Assembly (NCBI GenBank): GCA_030432695.1
Contig: JAUILN010000013.1
Location: 277,025-341,024, forward strand
Length of the DNA stretch: 64,000 bases
Source: a bacterium
GTDB lineage: Bacteria > Planctomycetota > UBA1135 > UBA2386
Reading direction: 5' to 3'
The position numbers and the translations under genes were made by a program. Below the pieces are notes generated by a model. It ran no database searches. It worked only from the letters and a program-made list of their open reading frames with translations, and had not been told where the DNA came from. Shown here piece by piece: positions 32,750 through 40,668 of the stretch (position 1 is its first letter; each line of letters begins with the position of its first letter).

Positions 32750-33778
32750 TCAGCGGCGGACTTCGACCACCAGGCCGTAGACCGGCTGGCGTTGGCCGGT
32801 GGCGCCGTCGGGATCCTCGACCCAGACCCGACCGACGTCGCGGCCGGTGCGCGGCACCACCACCGCGGCGTCGGTGGTGACCACGCCGAGCGCGTTGACG
32901 CCCGGCTGCACTGCGACGCCCTGCAGGCCGTAGTGGAAGCCGGCGGGCAGCGAGTCGACCGGGATCCGCAGGGCGAAGGCGCCGCCCGCATCGGACAGCC
33001 CGCGCACGTCGGTCAGCGGGTCGAGGTAGAGCGAGCAGCCGTCGGCCCCGAGCGGGGTCAGGTCGGCGGGGAGCGGGTTGCCGCCGCCGAAGTCGTCGAA
33101 GCGGTTGCCGACCAGCGCCAGGAACGGCGCGGTCGGCGGCAGGCCGGTGAACTCGTGCACCGCCTCGGTGCCCTCGAAGCGGACGGACGAGGTGGTGCCG
33201 CCGCAGGCGATGCCGAAGCTGGCCCGGTGGGCGCGGCCCTCGGCGACCAGCGCGAAGCGGGTGTCGACCGGGTTGCCGTGGCCGGTGACGCGCAGGTCGA
33301 GGCACAGCGGGCCGCTGCCGGCGAACGGCCAGGGAGTGTCGGTCGGGATCACGTACTCGAACGGCGCTGGCCCAGGGTCGGTGTGTCCGGGGCTGGCGGG
33401 CAGGTCGATGCTGCGCTGGGCGGTCACCACGCTGCGGTCGGTGCCGTGGTTGGCGGCGAACGAGGCAGCGATCGTCGCCGCGGTGGTGCGCGCGGTGCTG
33501 AGCCGCAGCTCGACGTCGGCGCGGAATGCCGGAACCGGCGCGTCGTCGGCCGGAGCACGGCGGAACGCCAGCGCGGTGATCAGCTGGGCACGGCCGCGCA
33601 TCCCGTCGTGGACCTGCAGGTAGCGCAGCCGGTCGCGGCTCGGGTAGCCGAACGGGAAGCCGGTCTCCGCCGAGGTCGTCGCCCACTCGAAGGGGACCGG
33701 GTCGACGGTCTGACGCTCCTGGCCGACGACGGCAGGGGCGAACAGCAGGGCGAGCAAGGGCAGCGGGGCGCGGCGCAT
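32750..33778 (-). CDS. secreted beta-rich protein sharing a domain with the 19718 protein
   Basis: 342 aa with a signal peptide (residues 1-19, MRRAPLPLLALLFAPAVVGQ). Residues 25-195 are a beta-rich domain with GFPFGYPSRDRLRYLQVHDG near the start. Residues about 205-305 carry a module with APFLALVGN, LPADLTPLGADGCSLYLDPL, GGAFALRIPVDSLPAGF and VNALGVVTTDAAVV. That order matches the C-terminus of the 721-aa secreted protein at 19718-21883. No catalytic motif. It is the last of eight genes read in the same direction from the sigma factor at 39502, separated by 41 bases from the FAA hydrolase. Confidence 0.72.
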   Translation of the reverse strand: MRRAPLPLLALLFAPAVVGQERQTVDPVPFEWATTSAETGFPFGYPSRDRLRYLQVHDGMRGRAQLITALAFRRAPADDAPVPAFRADVELRLSTARTTAATIAASFAANHGTDRSVVTAQRSIDLPASPGHTDPGPAPFEYVIPTDTPWPFAGSGPLCLDLRVTGHGNPVDTRFALVAEGRAHRASFGIACGGTTSSVRFEGTEAVHEFTGLPPTAPFLALVGNRFDDFGGGNPLPADLTPLGADGCSLYLDPLTDVRGLSDAGGAFALRIPVDSLPAGFHYGLQGVAVQPGVNALGVVTTDAAVVVPRTGRDVGRVWVEDPDGATGQRQPVYGLVVEVRR

Positions 33779-33819
33779 GCCCCGAGGATAGGCGACCGCT
33801 GGCCGCGCGCGAAGGCGGG

Positions 33820-34773
33820 TCAGCCGCGGGACGGTGGAGCCGCTTCGCGGCGCACCGGATTGCGCAGCACGCCGATGCGCTCGATCCGCCCGGTGCAGAC
33901 GTCGCCATCGCGCAGCGGGCCGACGCCCTCGGGGGTGCCCATCGCGATGAGGTCGCCGGGGCGCAGCGTGGTGTGCTTCGACAGCCAGGCGATCGCGGTC
34001 GGCACGTCGACCACCATCTTGGAGGTGTGGCTCGCCTGGCGCAGCTCGTCGTTCACCCACAGCTCGATCGCGAGGTCGTGCGGATCGAGCGCGTCGGCCG
34101 GCACCACCCAGGGACCGATCGGGCAGAAGGTGTCGAACGACTTGCAGCGCAGCCACGGCTTCTGCGCACCGCGGTCGTCGCCCTGCATGCGCCGCGCGGT
34201 GACGTCGTTCAGCACCGTGTAGCCGGCGACCAGCTCCATCGCCTCAGCGGGCTCGACGTACTTGCGGCCGCGGCCCTCGGGGTCGGCGAAGCCGAGGATC
34301 ACCGCCAGCTCGATCTCGTGGTCGATCCGCGTCTCGACCCACCACGGCAGCACGATCGGTGCCGCGTGGGCCTGCAGGGTGTCGGGGAGCTTGGTGAAGA
34401 ACAGCGGTTCCTCCGGCACCTCGGCGCCGAACTCGGCGGCGTGCGCGGCGAAGTTCTTGCCGAAGCAGAGGATCTTGCCGGGGCGCGCGATCGGCACGTC
34501 CCAGTGGATCGACGCGGGGTCGAGCGGGGTGCCGGTGGCGGCGAGGGCGCGCAGGCCGGTGGCGGTGCCCAGGCCGGACCCGACCGCCGAGAGTCCGGTG
34601 AGCTCGGGGCTCGGATCGCGCGGCGCGACGTCCCAGTCTGGTTCGGCGTCGACGAAGTGCGGGCCGTCGGGCACGACCACGCCGAAGCGGCGCGCGCCGT
34701 CGACGCGGTGTGCGAACCAGGCGGGGGAGTCCGGGAGCGACAGGTCGTCCGACGGAGGGCAGGGTTCGTTCAT
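33820..34773 (-). CDS. fumarylacetoacetate hydrolase family protein
   Basis: 317-aa FAH-fold enzyme, which cleaves or decarboxylates 2-oxo-acid-type substrates using Mg or Mn. The catalytic C-terminal domain has ILCFGKNFAAHAAEFG (about 98-113), metal ligands Glu in HEIELAVILG (about 152-154) and Asp in LNDVTARRMQ (about 190), then KSFDTFCPIGPWVV and the closing LRPGDLIAMGTPEGVG. This wording is typical of acylpyruvase (FAHD1-like) and 2-hydroxyhepta-2,4-diene-dioate isomerase relatives. The start overlaps the stop of the exported toroid gene by four bases (ATGA), a surprising pairing of a cytosolic enzyme with an exported protein. Confidence 0.9.
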   Translation of the reverse strand: MNEPCPPSDDLSLPDSPAWFAHRVDGARRFGVVVPDGPHFVDAEPDWDVAPRDPSPELTGLSAVGSGLGTATGLRALAATGTPLDPASIHWDVPIARPGKILCFGKNFAAHAAEFGAEVPEEPLFFTKLPDTLQAHAAPIVLPWWVETRIDHEIELAVILGFADPEGRGRKYVEPAEAMELVAGYTVLNDVTARRMQGDDRGAQKPWLRCKSFDTFCPIGPWVVPADALDPHDLAIELWVNDELRQASHTSKMVVDVPTAIAWLSKHTTLRPGDLIAMGTPEGVGPLRDGDVCTGRIERIGVLRNPVRREAAPPSRG

Positions 34774-35990
34774 CGGCAGCGTTCCAGGGCCAGCAGGGCG
34801 AACGTCGTGCAGAGCAGTGGCTTGTCCTCCCACCACCGGCCGCTCTCCTCGTTGAGCCACGAGCCATCGTCGTGCTGCAGCTCCTCCAGTCGAGCCGACA
34901 GCTCGGCCTTCCAGTGGACGGTGCGCGGCTCGGCGTCCTCGTCGTTCGCGGGCACGGTCAGCTCTTCGATGCCGGCCTCGTCGAGGGCCTGCGCCAGGAC
35001 CATGTAGTAGTAGTACAGGCCCTGGTACTGCGCCTCCTTGCCGAGTGCTGGGTCGGAGCCCGGGTTGATCTCGACCGACCAGTTGCCCTGGATCCAATCG
35101 ACCGCCGCCTGCACGCGCGGGTCGTCGGCGGGGATGCCGGCGAGGATGTAGCACTTGAGCAGGGAGTAGGTCATCGAGCCGTAGCTGCGCGGGATGACCT
35201 TGCCGTCGGGCAGTTCGACGTAGCCGGCGGTGGAGTTGCCGGGGTAGTACATCGCCCCGCCGTCGTCGCCGGAGACGACCTCCTGCCACTCGTCGCCGTT
35301 CTTCACGCGGCCCGCGAAGTCGTTCGACTCGCGGCGGTTCTGCGAGCGCTGCAGGAACACCACCGCCTTGGACAGCGCCTCGTCGTTGGCGGGCAGGCCG
35401 GACTCGCGCAGCGCCTGGATCGCGAACGACAGGTTGGAGAGGTCGCCGCGCTGGTCGCCGCCGTAGCCGACCGAACCGTAGTCGCGGTCCTCCTTGGCGA
35501 AGCCGCGGTCCTCGATGTTCTGGATGCCGAGGATGTAGTGCTGGGCCTTCTCGAGGGGCTTGCTGAACTCGTCGCGATGGGCCTTGGCCAGCGCGAGCAT
35601 CACCGCACAGGTGGTGTAGTTGGTGTTGCGGCGGCCGAACGAGCCGTCGTCGTTCTGCTGCTTCAGCAGCGCCGCGAGGCCCTGGTCGATGAGCTTCTGC
35701 TCGTCCTCGCTGCGGAGGTCGGCCGGCTTGGTCTGCAGGGCGGCCAGGGCGAGGCCCGAGAGGCCGGGGTCCGGGAAGTTGCCCTGCGGCGTGGCGATGA
35801 AGAAGGCACCGTCCTTCTGCTGCGTCAGCATGAACGCGAAGCCGTCCTGCTGGGTCTTCGTCCAGCCAGCGGCGGCGATGAGGGCAGCAGCGGTCTCCTC
35901 GTTGTGCTGGGCCTGCAGCGGGAGCAGCGCGAGGAGGGCGGCGGTCAGGGTGGACAGGGCTCCGAGGGCCGAACGGGAAGGGTGTTCCAT
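34770..35990 (-). CDS. exported prenyltransferase/squalene-cyclase-fold repeat protein (short paralogue)
   Basis: 406 aa with a signal peptide (residues 1-27, ending in LLPLQAQ). The mature part consists of alpha/alpha-toroid repeats marked by QW-like motifs: QQKDGAFF (about 57-64), QQNDDGSFGRR (about 111-121) and QHDDGSWLNEE (about 373-383). The strongly conserved middle contains GYGGDQRGDLSNL, SGDDGGAMYYPGN and IPRSYGSMTYSLLKCY. I see no DxDD or DCTAE-type cyclase motif. With its export signal, this suggests a binding or non-cyclase role. It is about the length of, and clearly homologous to, the C-terminal two thirds of the next upstream gene product (36137-37933), so the pair arose by duplication. 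Confidence 0.82.
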   Translation of the reverse strand: MEHPSRSALGALSTLTAALLALLPLQAQHNEETAAALIAAAGWTKTQQDGFAFMLTQQKDGAFFIATPQGNFPDPGLSGLALAALQTKPADLRSEDEQKLIDQGLAALLKQQNDDGSFGRRNTNYTTCAVMLALAKAHRDEFSKPLEKAQHYILGIQNIEDRGFAKEDRDYGSVGYGGDQRGDLSNLSFAIQALRESGLPANDEALSKAVVFLQRSQNRRESNDFAGRVKNGDEWQEVVSGDDGGAMYYPGNSTAGYVELPDGKVIPRSYGSMTYSLLKCYILAGIPADDPRVQAAVDWIQGNWSVEINPGSDPALGKEAQYQGLYYYYMVLAQALDEAGIEELTVPANDEDAEPRTVHWKAELSARLEELQHDDGSWLNEESGRWWEDKPLLCTTFALLALERCR

Positions 35991-36136
35991 GGGAGGGTCT
36001 TGGCCGGGGGTCTGGATCGCGCAACGATCCGGATGGGCGTCCGCGCAACGGCGAGTCGCGGCCTCGGTTCAGCCTCCATCCGGAATCCCGGTCTCCGGCT
36101 GGTCTCGTGCGGACGCTGCTCCCCGTCCCCCGGTCG

Positions 36137-37933
36137 TCACTGGCAGCGCTCGAGGGCCAGCAGCGCGTAGATCGTGCAGATCGCGGACTTGTCCTCCCAC
36201 CAGCGATCGTTGCGTTGGTTGAGCCAGGCGCCGTCGTCGTTCTGTGCTGCTTCGAGGCTCTCGCGGAGCGCCGTGCGCCACTGGATCTGGGGCGGAGCCG
36301 AAGCGACGTCGGCGGACGCACGACCAGACAGCGAGTCGATGCCGGCCTCGTCGAGGGCCTGGGCGAGGACCATGTAGTAGTAGTAGAGGCCCTGATACTG
36401 GGCCTTCTCGCCGAGCGCGGGGTCCGAGCCCGGGTTCACGTCGAGGCTCCAGTTGGCTTCGATCCACTCGACCGCCGCCTGCACCCGCGGGTCGTCGGTC
36501 GGGATGCCGGCGAGGATGTAGCACTTGAGCAGGGAGTAGGTCATCGAGCCGTAGCTGCGCGGGATCGACTTGCCGTCGGGCAGCTCGACGTAGCCGGCCG
36601 GGGAGTTGCCCGGGTAGTAGGCCGCGCCGCCGTCGTCGCCGGAGACCACGTCCTGCCAGCCGTCCTCGTTGCGCACCCGCCCGGAGAAGTCGTTGACGTC
36701 GCGCTTGTTCTGGGTGCGCTGCAGGAACACCACCGCCTTGGCCAGCGCCTCGTCGTTCTCGGGCAGGCCCGCCTCGCGCAGCGCCTGCACCGCGAACTGC
36801 AGGTTCGACAGGTCGCCGCGCTGGTCGCCGCCGTAGCCGATCGAGCCGTAGTCGCGGTCGCTCCGCGCGTAGCCGCGGTCCTCGATGTTCTGGATGCCGA
36901 GGAGGTAGCGCCGGGCCTTCTCGAGTGCGGGCCCGAACTCGGCGCGGCGGGCCTTGGCCAATGCGAGCACGGCCGCGCAGGTGGTGTAGTTGGCGTTGCG
37001 CTCGGCGAACGAGCCGTCGTCGTTCTGCATCGCCAGCAGCTTCTGGAGTCCCGCCTCGATCACCGCCTGCTCGGTCTCGGTGCGCAGCGCCGCCGGCTTC
37101 GACTGCAGCGCAGCCAGCGCGAGCGCGGAGACTCCCGGGTCGGGGAAGTCGCCGGCGGGCGTGCGCAGGAAGAAGGACCCGTCTTCCTGCTGGGACAGCA
37201 GGAACTCGACGCCGGCCTGCTGCGAGGGCCACCACTCTGCGCCGACCGCGGCCGCGGGGTCGGTGCCGCTGTCGAGTTCGCGAGCGACGGTCTGGCAGGC
37301 GACGACGTCGACCAGCGCGTCGACCGCGCCGGCGAGGTTGGCGCCGCCCTCGGCGCCCAGCGCGGCGCGCAGCCGTTCGACGTGGGGCCGGCCGAGTTCC
37401 GGAGGCGTGCCCTCACCGCGGGCGACCGCGGCGCGCACCGCGGCCAGCCGCGCTGCCCACGGCCCGCTGCCGGCGTGTCCGCTGCTCTTCAGCCACTCCT
37501 CCGCCTGACGCACGTCGCTGCGATACAGCTCCGGTTCCATGACCGCGAGGGCGGCGATCGCCCAGGAAGTGGTCACCGCACGGTCGGCGGCGGTCTCGTC
37601 GTCTGCGCTGGCGAAGCTGCCGTCGCTGCGTCGGCTGCCGAACAGCGCGGCGAGCGCGGGCCGCACCACCGGGCCGTCGGCCTGCGAATAGAAGCGGTGG
37701 CAGTGGCCCATCGCGGTGAGCAGTTGCGCGGTCGTCCGGACGCTGCCGACCCGACCGTTCGGGTCCGCGGCCTTGCGCAGTGCGCCGAGGGCGCCGTCGA
37801 CGTCCGACTTGAAGATCGTGCCGAACTCGGGCCGCTCGGTGGTCTCCTGGGCCCCGATCGGAAGCGGTGCGAGGACGGCGAGTGTCCACGGCAGCAGGAG
37901 GGCGGTGGGGCGAAGGGGGAACGCGCGGGCCAT
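36137..37933 (-). CDS. exported prenyltransferase/squalene-cyclase-fold repeat protein (long paralogue)
   Basis: 598 aa with a signal peptide (residues 1-28, ending in PLPIGAQ). Residues 230-598 align almost end to end with the 406-aa neighbour: QQEDGSFFLRT, QNDDGSFAERNANYTTCA, GIQNIEDRGYA, GYGGDQRGDLSNLQFA, SGDDGGAAYYPGN, PRSYGSMTYSLLKCYILAGI and QNDDGAWLNQR. The extra N-terminal 200 residues contain a further degenerate toroid repeat (SRRSDGSFASADDETAADRAV) and a Cys/His pair in GHCHRF. The 146-base gap to the neighbour suggests separate translation but probable co-transcription. Role unknown; carbohydrate, lipid or protein binding are all possible for this fold. Confidence 0.83.
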   Translation of the reverse strand: MARAFPLRPTALLLPWTLAVLAPLPIGAQETTERPEFGTIFKSDVDGALGALRKAADPNGRVGSVRTTAQLLTAMGHCHRFYSQADGPVVRPALAALFGSRRSDGSFASADDETAADRAVTTSWAIAALAVMEPELYRSDVRQAEEWLKSSGHAGSGPWAARLAAVRAAVARGEGTPPELGRPHVERLRAALGAEGGANLAGAVDALVDVVACQTVARELDSGTDPAAAVGAEWWPSQQAGVEFLLSQQEDGSFFLRTPAGDFPDPGVSALALAALQSKPAALRTETEQAVIEAGLQKLLAMQNDDGSFAERNANYTTCAAVLALAKARRAEFGPALEKARRYLLGIQNIEDRGYARSDRDYGSIGYGGDQRGDLSNLQFAVQALREAGLPENDEALAKAVVFLQRTQNKRDVNDFSGRVRNEDGWQDVVSGDDGGAAYYPGNSPAGYVELPDGKSIPRSYGSMTYSLLKCYILAGIPTDDPRVQAAVEWIEANWSLDVNPGSDPALGEKAQYQGLYYYYMVLAQALDEAGIDSLSGRASADVASAPPQIQWRTALRESLEAAQNDDGAWLNQRNDRWWEDKSAICTIYALLALERCQ

Positions 37934-38055
37934 GGCGGGTCTCGGTCGTGGCGGTGGAGGGAGGTGCGCGGCCGAGAGACGAGCCCTGGCCGGCGTCCGA
38001 TCCAGGTGCGACCGGATCGGTCCGCGCACGATACCGCGGCGCGCCGCGCAGGCGA

Positions 38056-38412
38056 TCACTCCGCCGAGCGCGTGCCGGGTCCCGGCGGCGGCTCGATCCG
38101 CACCGCGGTCCCGTAGACCAGCATCTCGGCCGATCCCGCGGCGACCCGGCTGTTCTCGAAGCGCACGCCGATGATCGCGTTCGCGCCGAGCTGGAGGGCG
38201 TGGTCGCACATCCGGTCGAGGGCCTGCTCGCGGGCCTCGGCCATCATCTTCACGTAGTGGTCGAGGTCGGAGCCGACCAGGTTCCGCAGCCACTCGACGA
38301 AGTCCTTGAACACGTCGCGGGTGCGGATCGACTGGCCGCGGACCAGGCCGAAGGTCTCCTGGATGTCGTGGCCAGGGACGTTGCTGGTGGTGGTGATCAG
38401 GATCCTGCTCAT
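38056..38412 (-). CDS. YbjQ/UPF0145 family protein
   Basis: 118 aa. The sequence TTTSNVPGHDIQETFGLVRG at the N-terminus, followed by the helix with EAREQALDRMCDHALQLGANAIIGVRF and the strands SAEMLVYGTAVRI, is diagnostic of the YbjQ_1 family. It is a small cytoplasmic protein thought to form pentamers and loosely labelled heavy-metal binding. The start overlaps the anti-sigma gene stop by four bases (ATGA). The C-terminal dozen residues are Pro/Gly-rich and variable. Its translational link to a sigma/anti-sigma pair is notable, since the family is otherwise of uncertain role. Confidence 0.93.
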   Translation of the reverse strand: MSRILITTTSNVPGHDIQETFGLVRGQSIRTRDVFKDFVEWLRNLVGSDLDHYVKMMAEAREQALDRMCDHALQLGANAIIGVRFENSRVAAGSAEMLVYGTAVRIEPPPGPGTRSAE

Positions 38413-38894
38413 CGCACGACTCCGCGGTAGCGGTCGAGTCGGCGGGTCCTGAGGCGCTGGCGGACGGTCGAGGCCAGCAGCAGGCCGCCGCCCGCGACGA
38501 TCGCCGCGGAGCCGATCTTCAGCACCCAAGGGAAGTCGGCGCAGTACAGCTCCCAACACCCGAAGCCGGCCAGGCAGGCGACGCCGCCGACCAGCAACAC
38601 CCAGCCGAGCCGCCACTCGGCGCGGTTGTAGAAGCGTCCCCAGAAGCGCCGCAGCTCGGCCTCGGTCGGCTCCAGTCGTCCGGAGCCGTGCGAGAGGTCG
38701 AGCATGGTCCGGTAGTCGGCGACCTCGGCGGCGAGTCCGGGATCGTCGGCCATCAGCTTCTCGAAGCGCAGCCGCTCGCGCGGAGCCAGCTCGTGATCGA
38801 CGTAGGCCATCATCAGCTGCTCGCGCTCGCTGAGCGGCGGATCTTCTTCCGGTGCTCCGCCGGGCGGATAACGGCCGGACTCTGCGGCGTTCAT
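38409..38894 (-). CDS. putative membrane anti-sigma factor
   Basis: 161 aa. Residues 25-60 (LMMAYVDHELAPRERLRFEKLMADDPGLAAEV) match the N-terminal helical pattern of anti-sigma factors, but no His-x3-Cys-x2-Cys zinc motif is present. Two membrane segments follow (about 97-117 and 124-146), with a short segment containing two Cys between them (CWELYCADF), then a basic cytoplasmic tail. The gene starts inside the last four bases of the ECF sigma factor gene and ends overlapping the YbjQ gene. Topology and position support binding of that sigma factor at the membrane; direct evidence is lacking. Confidence 0.78.
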   Translation of the reverse strand: MNAAESGRYPPGGAPEEDPPLSEREQLMMAYVDHELAPRERLRFEKLMADDPGLAAEVADYRTMLDLSHGSGRLEPTEAELRRFWGRFYNRAEWRLGWVLLVGGVACLAGFGCWELYCADFPWVLKIGSAAIVAGGGLLLASTVRQRLRTRRLDRYRGVVR

Positions 38895-39502
38895 CGGCGG
38901 CCCTCCAGGACGGGCTCCAGGATGCCGCGCAGGCGGCGCCGGGCGTGGAACAGACGGGACATGACGGTGCCGACCGGGCATTCGAGGATCTCGGCGATCT
39001 GCGCGTATTCGAGGTCCTCGATGTGTCGGAGCAGGATGATCTCGCGGTGGGCTGGGCTGAGCTGGTCGAGTGCCGACCAGAAATGACGCTGTGACTCGTT
39101 GAGCTCCGCGCGGGACCGGGGACACAGCATCCCCTCGTCCTCGAGTTCGAAGTCACCCTCGCCTTCGTCGCGAGCGCTGAGCGACCAGGCCCGGCGCCGC
39201 CGGCGCTTCTCCAGGAAGCTCAGGCAGGCATTGCGGAGGATCCGGAAGAACCACGGCGCGAACGGTTCGCCGTCGCGGAAGCGGTCCAGCGACTTGAAGA
39301 CCCGGAAGAAGGCCTCCTGCGCCAGATCGACCGCGTCGTCACGGTTGCGCGTGTAGCCCATCGCGACGTGGATCGCGGGGCCCATGTAGCGATCGACCAG
39401 GGCCTCGAAGCTCTCGGCATGGCCGCGCTTCGCGTCGCTGATCAGACGGATTTCCTCGACGGCACTCAACGGCCGCGGACTACCGGACCCGGTGGGGGGC
39501 AT
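38891..39502 (-). CDS. ECF-type RNA polymerase sigma factor
   Basis: 203 aa. Region 2 lies about residues 28-95 with ALVDRYMGPAIHVAM, RDDAVDLAQEAFFRVF and PFAPWFFRILRNACLSFLEKRRRR. An acidic linker (EGEGDFELEDEG) follows, then region 4 at about 140-200 with LSPAHREIILLRHIEDLEYAQIAEIL and the DNA-recognition helix VGTVMSRLFHARRRL. There is no region 3, as expected for the extracytoplasmic-function class. It heads a run of eight codirectional genes reaching 32750 and is coupled to the anti-sigma gene by ATGA. The upstream neighbour is divergent 89 bases away, where its promoter must lie. Confidence 0.93.
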   Translation of the reverse strand: MPPTGSGSPRPLSAVEEIRLISDAKRGHAESFEALVDRYMGPAIHVAMGYTRNRDDAVDLAQEAFFRVFKSLDRFRDGEPFAPWFFRILRNACLSFLEKRRRRRAWSLSARDEGEGDFELEDEGMLCPRSRAELNESQRHFWSALDQLSPAHREIILLRHIEDLEYAQIAEILECPVGTVMSRLFHARRRLRGILEPVLEGRR

Positions 39503-39591
39503 TCAGGCCCCATCCAACTTTCTTCTGCAGGTCGGCGCAACGTGCAGTTCGGTGGTTGTGGCGCTCCCGGCGGCCGGTTCCGATCGGCGCG

Positions 39592-40668
39592 ATGGCTGTC
39601 GATGCCCGTCGCGCGGTCCGGCTCTGCGAGGAGTTCCTGGCGATCCCGAGTCCCTACGGCGCGGAACAGGGGTTCTGCTCGGACATGCGGCGGCGGGCCG
39701 AGGGGCTGCGTCCCTGGGCGCTCGAGGAGGCGGACGACAGCTTGCTGATCGTGCCGCGCGCGCCTCGAGAAGGGCGTCCGCGGGTGCTGTTGGCGGGCCA
39801 CCTCGACACGGTGCCCGAGCTGAGTCCCAACCCGGTGCGCAGCGAGGCGGGACGGCTCTACGGCACCGGCGCCTCCGACATGAAGTCCGGACTTGCGGTG
39901 CTGTGGGCGGTGGCGGAAGCGCTGGTCGACACGGCGGCGGACGTCGACGTGGTGGTCGTGCTGTATGCGCGCGAGGAGGGGCCCTACGAACATTCGGCCC
40001 TGCCGTCGCTGCGCGCCGCCGCGCCGCAGTGGTTCGAGGGCGTCGACCTCGCGGTGTGCATGGAGCCGACCGACGGGGTGGTCGAGGTGGGCTGCATCGG
40101 CACGCTCCACGCGCGCATCGTGTTCGAGGGCCGACGCGCCCATTCGGCCCGGCCGTGGCAGGGCGACAACGCGTTGCATCGTGCCGGTCGGTTCGTGGCC
40201 CGGGTCGACGGCTTCGGTCGGCGGCGGGTCGCGCGGGGCGGGTTGGAGTTCTCCGAGGTCCTGAGTGCGACCGGTATCGAGACGCGCGGTGCGCTCAACG
40301 TGGTCCCCGACCTCGCCGTCGTCGAGGTCAACTACCGCTACGCTCCGGGCCGTGACCGGGCGTCCGCGGAGCGCGAACTCGCCGCGGTGGTGCGCGGCGA
40401 GGGCCGCATCGAAGTGGTGTCCTGGTGGCCGGCGGGGGACGCGCATCCGGACCACGAGCTGGTCCGCTCCCTGGTGCGTGCTGCCGGCGGGGAGGTGCCG
40501 CGTGCCAAGCAGGCCTGGACCGACGTGGGGCGCTTCACGGGTTGGAGCATCCCCGCGGTCAGCTGGGGACCGGGCCTGCGGGCGCAGGCCCACCAGGCCG
40601 GTGAGTGGGTCGAGGTCGAGGCGATCGTGCGGGCGTGTCGCGTCGTCGGGGACTGGCTCGGGATCTGA
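39592..40668 (+). CDS. M20 metallopeptidase, DapE-like
   Basis: 358 aa co-catalytic zinc hydrolase. Motifs in order: LAGHLDTVP (His and Asp, about 75-83), GTGASDMKSGLAV (bridging Asp, about 100), AREEGPYEHS (catalytic Glu about 135), MEPT (Glu, about 163) and the closing PGLRAQAHQAGEWVEVE (His about 340). The dimerisation insert lies between about 170 and 280. The spacing resembles actinobacterial-type succinyl-diaminopimelate desuccinylase, which would act in lysine/peptidoglycan synthesis; acetylornithine deacetylase or a general peptidase are alternatives. The ATG at 39592 is preferred to one 12 codons upstream because homology begins here. Divergent from the sigma factor gene. Confidence 0.85.
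   Translation: MAVDARRAVRLCEEFLAIPSPYGAEQGFCSDMRRRAEGLRPWALEEADDSLLIVPRAPREGRPRVLLAGHLDTVPELSPNPVRSEAGRLYGTGASDMKSGLAVLWAVAEALVDTAADVDVVVVLYAREEGPYEHSALPSLRAAAPQWFEGVDLAVCMEPTDGVVEVGCIGTLHARIVFEGRRAHSARPWQGDNALHRAGRFVARVDGFGRRRVARGGLEFSEVLSATGIETRGALNVVPDLAVVEVNYRYAPGRDRASAERELAAVVRGEGRIEVVSWWPAGDAHPDHELVRSLVRAAGGEVPRAKQAWTDVGRFTGWSIPAVSWGPGLRAQAHQAGEWVEVEAIVRACRVVGDWLGI

Follow-up and report, generated by a model that had tools for sequence, protein, structure and literature searches.

A row of genes on a Planctomycetota contig begins with an ECF sigma factor and an anti-sigma factor and continues with two exported paralogues of terpene-cyclase fold, which raises the question of whether the sigma factor at its head controls the exported proteins behind it. 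The window, by which we mean the whole stretch of DNA analysed (64,000 nucleotides), belongs to a 10.0 Mb assembly in 37 contigs (here G000), and the row runs collinearly on its minus strand from 32750 to 39502. A preliminary description had counted eight genes in this row and named seven; an ORF check together with Pfam found seven, and bore out the collinear arrangement, the coordinates, the overlaps and the gaps. In order, the genes encode an ECF sigma factor, sigma1 (38891..39502, 203 aa), an anti-sigma factor, anti-sigma1 (38409..38894, 161 aa), a YbjQ family protein (38056..38412, 118 aa; PF01906, 1.7e-34), the exported two-toroid protein tor1 (36137..37933, 598 aa), its exported single-toroid paralogue tor2 (34770..35990, 406 aa), an FAA hydrolase family protein with the PF01557 domain (33820..34773, 317 aa; 1.8e-63) and an exported protein of no family, called as an ORF (32750..33778, 342 aa). 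Four-base overlaps join sigma1 to anti-sigma1, anti-sigma1 to YbjQ and the tor2 stop to the FAA hydrolase start, and gaps of 122, 146 and 41 bases separate the other neighbours. An M20 peptidase gene (DapE-like, 39556-40668, plus strand) is divergent from sigma1, with 53 bp between the two.

The first three genes form a translationally coupled regulatory module. Sigma1 carries Sigma70_r2 and Sigma70_r4 as its only Pfam domains, a composition that places it, like the sigma2 factor described below, among the ECF factors. The assignment of anti-sigma1 draws on a zf-HC2 match, on hydropathy and on the adjacency of YbjQ in relatives. At 22.4 bits, the zf-HC2 match barely clears the gathering threshold of 22.2 bits, and the His/Cys ligands are absent; the N-terminus is class-I-like and lacks the Hx3Cx2C motif, and hydropathy predicts two TM helices and no sizeable periplasmic domain. 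ASDI without zinc exist (PMC7406223). At the other end of the row, the last exported protein had no Pfam or NCBIfam match, and its homologues adjoin the FAA gene in few close relatives only. It had been credited with a shared C-terminal module, for which we found no second match among the 42 window genes (crude gene calls).

The informative check put forward in the preliminary description was a search for a repeated ECF promoter motif upstream of sigma1 (39502), tor1 (37933) and tor2 (35990). Hallmarks of ECF factors are AAC at -35, CGT at -10 and positive autoregulation (PMC8103513). A motif scan returned an ECF-type element, TGAACC-N15-CGTT, at 36047..36071 on the minus strand, ending 56 bp before the tor2 ATG, and none upstream of sigma1 or tor1, so that the repeat was found at one of the three places. 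This element is the only match in the window and is not significant by itself, with 0.10 expected; it is conserved at orthologues. Across the order, the strict form TGAACC-N15/16-CGTT lies upstream of 38 of 59 toroid genes (shuffle mean 0.02), a count that becomes 46/59 when CGAACC is also allowed, and the spacer was 15 or 16 in every match, though 13-18 was permitted. The window region and the relatives' loci (1.07 Mb) hold 44 TGAACC-type matches, 43 of which sit just upstream of a toroid gene: a script assigned 39, inspection added those at L059, L068, L081 and the window's tor2, and one lies elsewhere. Over the named loci (1.27 Mb) there are 46 matches overall, and the motif is found upstream of 46 of 74 toroids, a set not independent of the first toroid count, given the overlap of loci L094-L171 with the G genomes. 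In G006 (L034), the closest relative, the toroid motif is absent, whereas Poly30 has it as TGAACC-N15-CGTT (L156). Because the motif was first spotted by eye among toroid upstream regions, only its occurrence at sigma2 is an independent test. A phylum-wide motif was considered and rejected: the strict or loose form was present at just 4 of 20 toroids of other groups, and we therefore limit the regulon claim to the order.

The relatives compared include Planctomycetota MAGs, Pla86 and Poly30 (which we take to be Saltatorellus ferox). Sigma1, anti-sigma1 and YbjQ stay together among them, and a toroid gene lies within 10 kb of the sigma1 orthologue, on the same contig, in 33 of the 37 order genomes that have sigma1 (median 3.5 kb); in the remaining four, the two genes are on different contigs. 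The FAA gene is directly downstream of a toroid gene in 44 of 60 loci. The genes of the row are thus associated beyond chance. Since housekeeping genes (named by eye from sequence) occupy the same neighbourhood, linkage taken by itself argues only weakly for co-regulation. In at least eight loci (L035, L036, L070, L075, L079, L082, L086 and L090), YbjQ and the toroid are separated by conserved opposite-strand genes (clusters 20 and 39). In several loci of other families (L070-L093, from f5 and f8) an lpxB homologue closely precedes the sigma1 trio, a hint that sigma1 is connected with lipid A or the envelope. From these two arrangements it follows that the window's layout as a single operon is not conserved.

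A reading that makes sigma1 the toroid cluster's own sigma factor, and all seven genes one ECF-controlled unit, can appeal to the tight gene order in the window, to the proximity just described, and to a region 4 recognition helix that is RpoE-like by eye, so that an AAC -35 box might suit it. The intervening opposite-strand genes speak against this reading, as do the lack of the motif upstream of sigma1 and tor1 and the phyletic pattern: strong sigma1 and anti-sigma matches are absent from most genomes of the window's family (f1), and nearly all same-family loci in genomes without sigma1/anti-sigma orthologues keep the motif upstream of the toroid. On the motif and the phyletic pattern we rejected sigma1 as the toroid regulator, and consider the one-unit reading decidedly unlikely. 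What stands of the proposed regulon around exported toroids is an apparent ECF-type control in a general sense, not the local sigma/anti-sigma pair as its head. A sigma gene adjoining a conserved cluster need not read the promoter of that cluster.

Since sigma1 is mostly missing in f1 and the toroid motif is kept there, the simplest reader of the motif would be a second ECF factor, sigma2 (G000:C5:556055-556741), which is itself preceded by one of the motif sites in G000. Sigma2 has matches in 99 of 101 relatives, and the motif is just upstream of its orthologues in 48 of 50 loci, comprising all 30 f1/f6 loci (26 sigma starts assigned by script, four by position) and 18 of 20 loci from other families (17 strict, one CGAACC). 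In G000, a gene for a 587-aa protein overlaps sigma2 by 4 bases. A Pfam search with this protein gave no match; its hydropathy profile marks one segment around residue 150 and another hydrophobic stretch around 570, and by its position it is probably the membrane anti-sigma of sigma2, with a large predicted extracytoplasmic part. A gene for a TolC-type OEP follows it in the operon. Homologues of the probable anti-sigma come after sigma2 in 26 of the 30 f1/f6 loci, and TolC-like homologues in 17 of the 20 other-family loci, which supports sigma2 orthology at 39-46% identity. In sigma2, then, one and the same motif precedes the sigma gene and its candidate targets, as in an autoregulated ECF factor; sigma1 and the toroids share no such motif. 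Gene content, synteny, phyletic pattern and the conservation of the motif at toroid and sigma2 genes are read from the sequence, and from them we infer that sigma2 reads the toroid motif.

The reader could instead be a third ECF factor, the motif at sigma2 then reflecting cross-regulation and not autoregulation. A first look does give tens to hundreds of ECF-like candidates per genome, but retention of the motif at nearly all sigma2 genes commonly marks autoregulation, and sigma2 is the sole sigma gene recognised among 42 G000 sites; we hold this alternative to be very improbable. It is also unlikely, if somewhat easier to imagine, that sigma1 and sigma2 both read overlapping ECF promoters, with toroid expression responding to two signals in genomes that have sigma1. 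Both are ECF factors and sigma1 is retained beside motif-bearing toroids, but its own gene is without such a motif.

We favour, with a probability of about 0.7, the reading that tor2 and the FAA gene are under an autoregulated sigma2 with mostly exported targets, the sigma1 module being a syntenic neighbour and probably not the master of the toroids. A separate ECF promoter, TGAACC-N15-CGTT (36071-36047), would drive the toroid-FAA unit, and sigma2 would read both this promoter and that of its own gene. An envelope signal would release sigma2, and the released factor would act on its own operon and on about 20 promoter-positioned sites in G000, co-inducing mostly exported proteins, among them tor2 and further toroids. 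With autoregulated ECF regulons of the RpoE-RseA type, sigma2 shares the ECF architecture, the AAC -35 and CGTT -10 boxes, the motif upstream of its own gene and the adjacent probable anti-sigma gene; unlike them, its operon continues with a TolC-like gene and its candidate targets include exported toroids. Such a system would supply a concrete sigma-promoter pair for a Planctomycetota group whose regulons appear little mapped. A search of open-access papers returned nothing relevant on the planctomycete toroid or on a TolC-linked ECF, and a small sigma2 regulon of exported proteins common to the whole order would apparently be undescribed.

Genome-wide, G000 contains 28 TGAACC sites, compared with 6 in a reversed control, and 23 of them are promoter-positioned by a rule of our own; TGAACT sites are mostly intragenic. 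Downstream of G000 sites we found, in addition to sigma2 and tor2, a third toroid (L199), two more SQHop_cyclase_C-like proteins (L243:1561-2994 and L235:953-2575), a TonB-dependent receptor, a VWA/YfbK protein, CarboxypepD_reg proteins and a CobN-like protein. A BlaI/MecI-type repressor gene (L240:1244-1639) also has the motif upstream in G000, and around 2300-2440 of L236 two motif sites face apart between a CobN-like gene and an exported-protein gene. Judged by eye, 18 of the 23 putative regulon proteins look exported or membrane-anchored; a crude rule assigns a signal peptide to 12 of the 23 and to 12 of the 42 window genes, an enrichment that is no more than suggestive. Many other genomes show little or no excess of the motif over the reversed control. 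Across the order, firm membership is therefore limited to sigma2 and the toroid, and a wider order-wide regulon is only suggested.

The toroid family itself extends far beyond the order. Homologues are present in 98 of the 101 relatives of G000, and the toroid profile was matched, in some cases weakly, in 357 of 392 sampled Planctomycetota genomes. The regulon would thus tie a phylum-wide exported family without known function to envelope-type control. The usual form within the order is tor1-like, with two toroids and about 530-630 aa, and good matches outside it mostly have about 380-430 aa; tor2 is without the N-terminal toroid and is 69% identical to tor1. Export of the toroids was called by eye from the N-terminal sequence. 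That the two paralogues have a terpene-cyclase fold was confirmed by SQHop_cyclase_C matches (about 1e-10) and by AlphaFold models matching structures of terpene cyclases and of other alpha/alpha-toroids (pLDDT 90.8 for tor1 and 92.6 for tor2). With SQHop cyclase and class II terpene cyclases (PF13243) they share this predicted fold and QxxDGS-type repeats, the match to PF13243 being partial (positions 150-280 of 319). They differ from these enzymes in having an N-terminal signal-like sequence and a conserved beta-hairpin insert with invariant polar residues, and in that DxDD is not conserved. A class II terpene cyclase function was rejected, since the DxDD general acid turned up in 3 of 70 sequences and its position varied among them. 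A protein prenyltransferase beta subunit, which needs a Zn-binding Asp/Cys/His, was rejected too, as no Cys or His column is conserved at 95%. Since Foldseek returned terpene cyclases, GH76, GH105, AprG and FTase beta at comparable scores, the fold names no function. The glycan-active GH76 and GH105 toroids and AprG reach fold scores near those of terpene cyclases, with a TM to target of about 0.55-0.6, but their sequence identity to the toroids is only 11-15%.

In the family alignment, it is the C-terminal toroid that carries the invariant positions, and many of these are polar. It is little more than a guess, prompted by fold and conservation, that a conserved polar site lets the toroid bind or modify a glycan or lipid of the envelope. 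More broadly, and tentatively, the toroid may be a near-universal Planctomycetota envelope enzyme, in which a terpene-cyclase fold has been re-purposed outside the cytoplasm for an isoprenoid- or glycan-type substrate and which in one order has come under a dedicated sigma2/anti-sigma/TolC regulon; we find this possible and rather doubtful. The layout of tor1 and tor2 fits a tandem duplication of a promoter-toroid unit, with subsequent loss of the motif at tor1 and of the N-terminal toroid at tor2. The third toroid paralogue of G000, on contig C16 (L003, L199), is 50% identical to tor2 and has the motif upstream.
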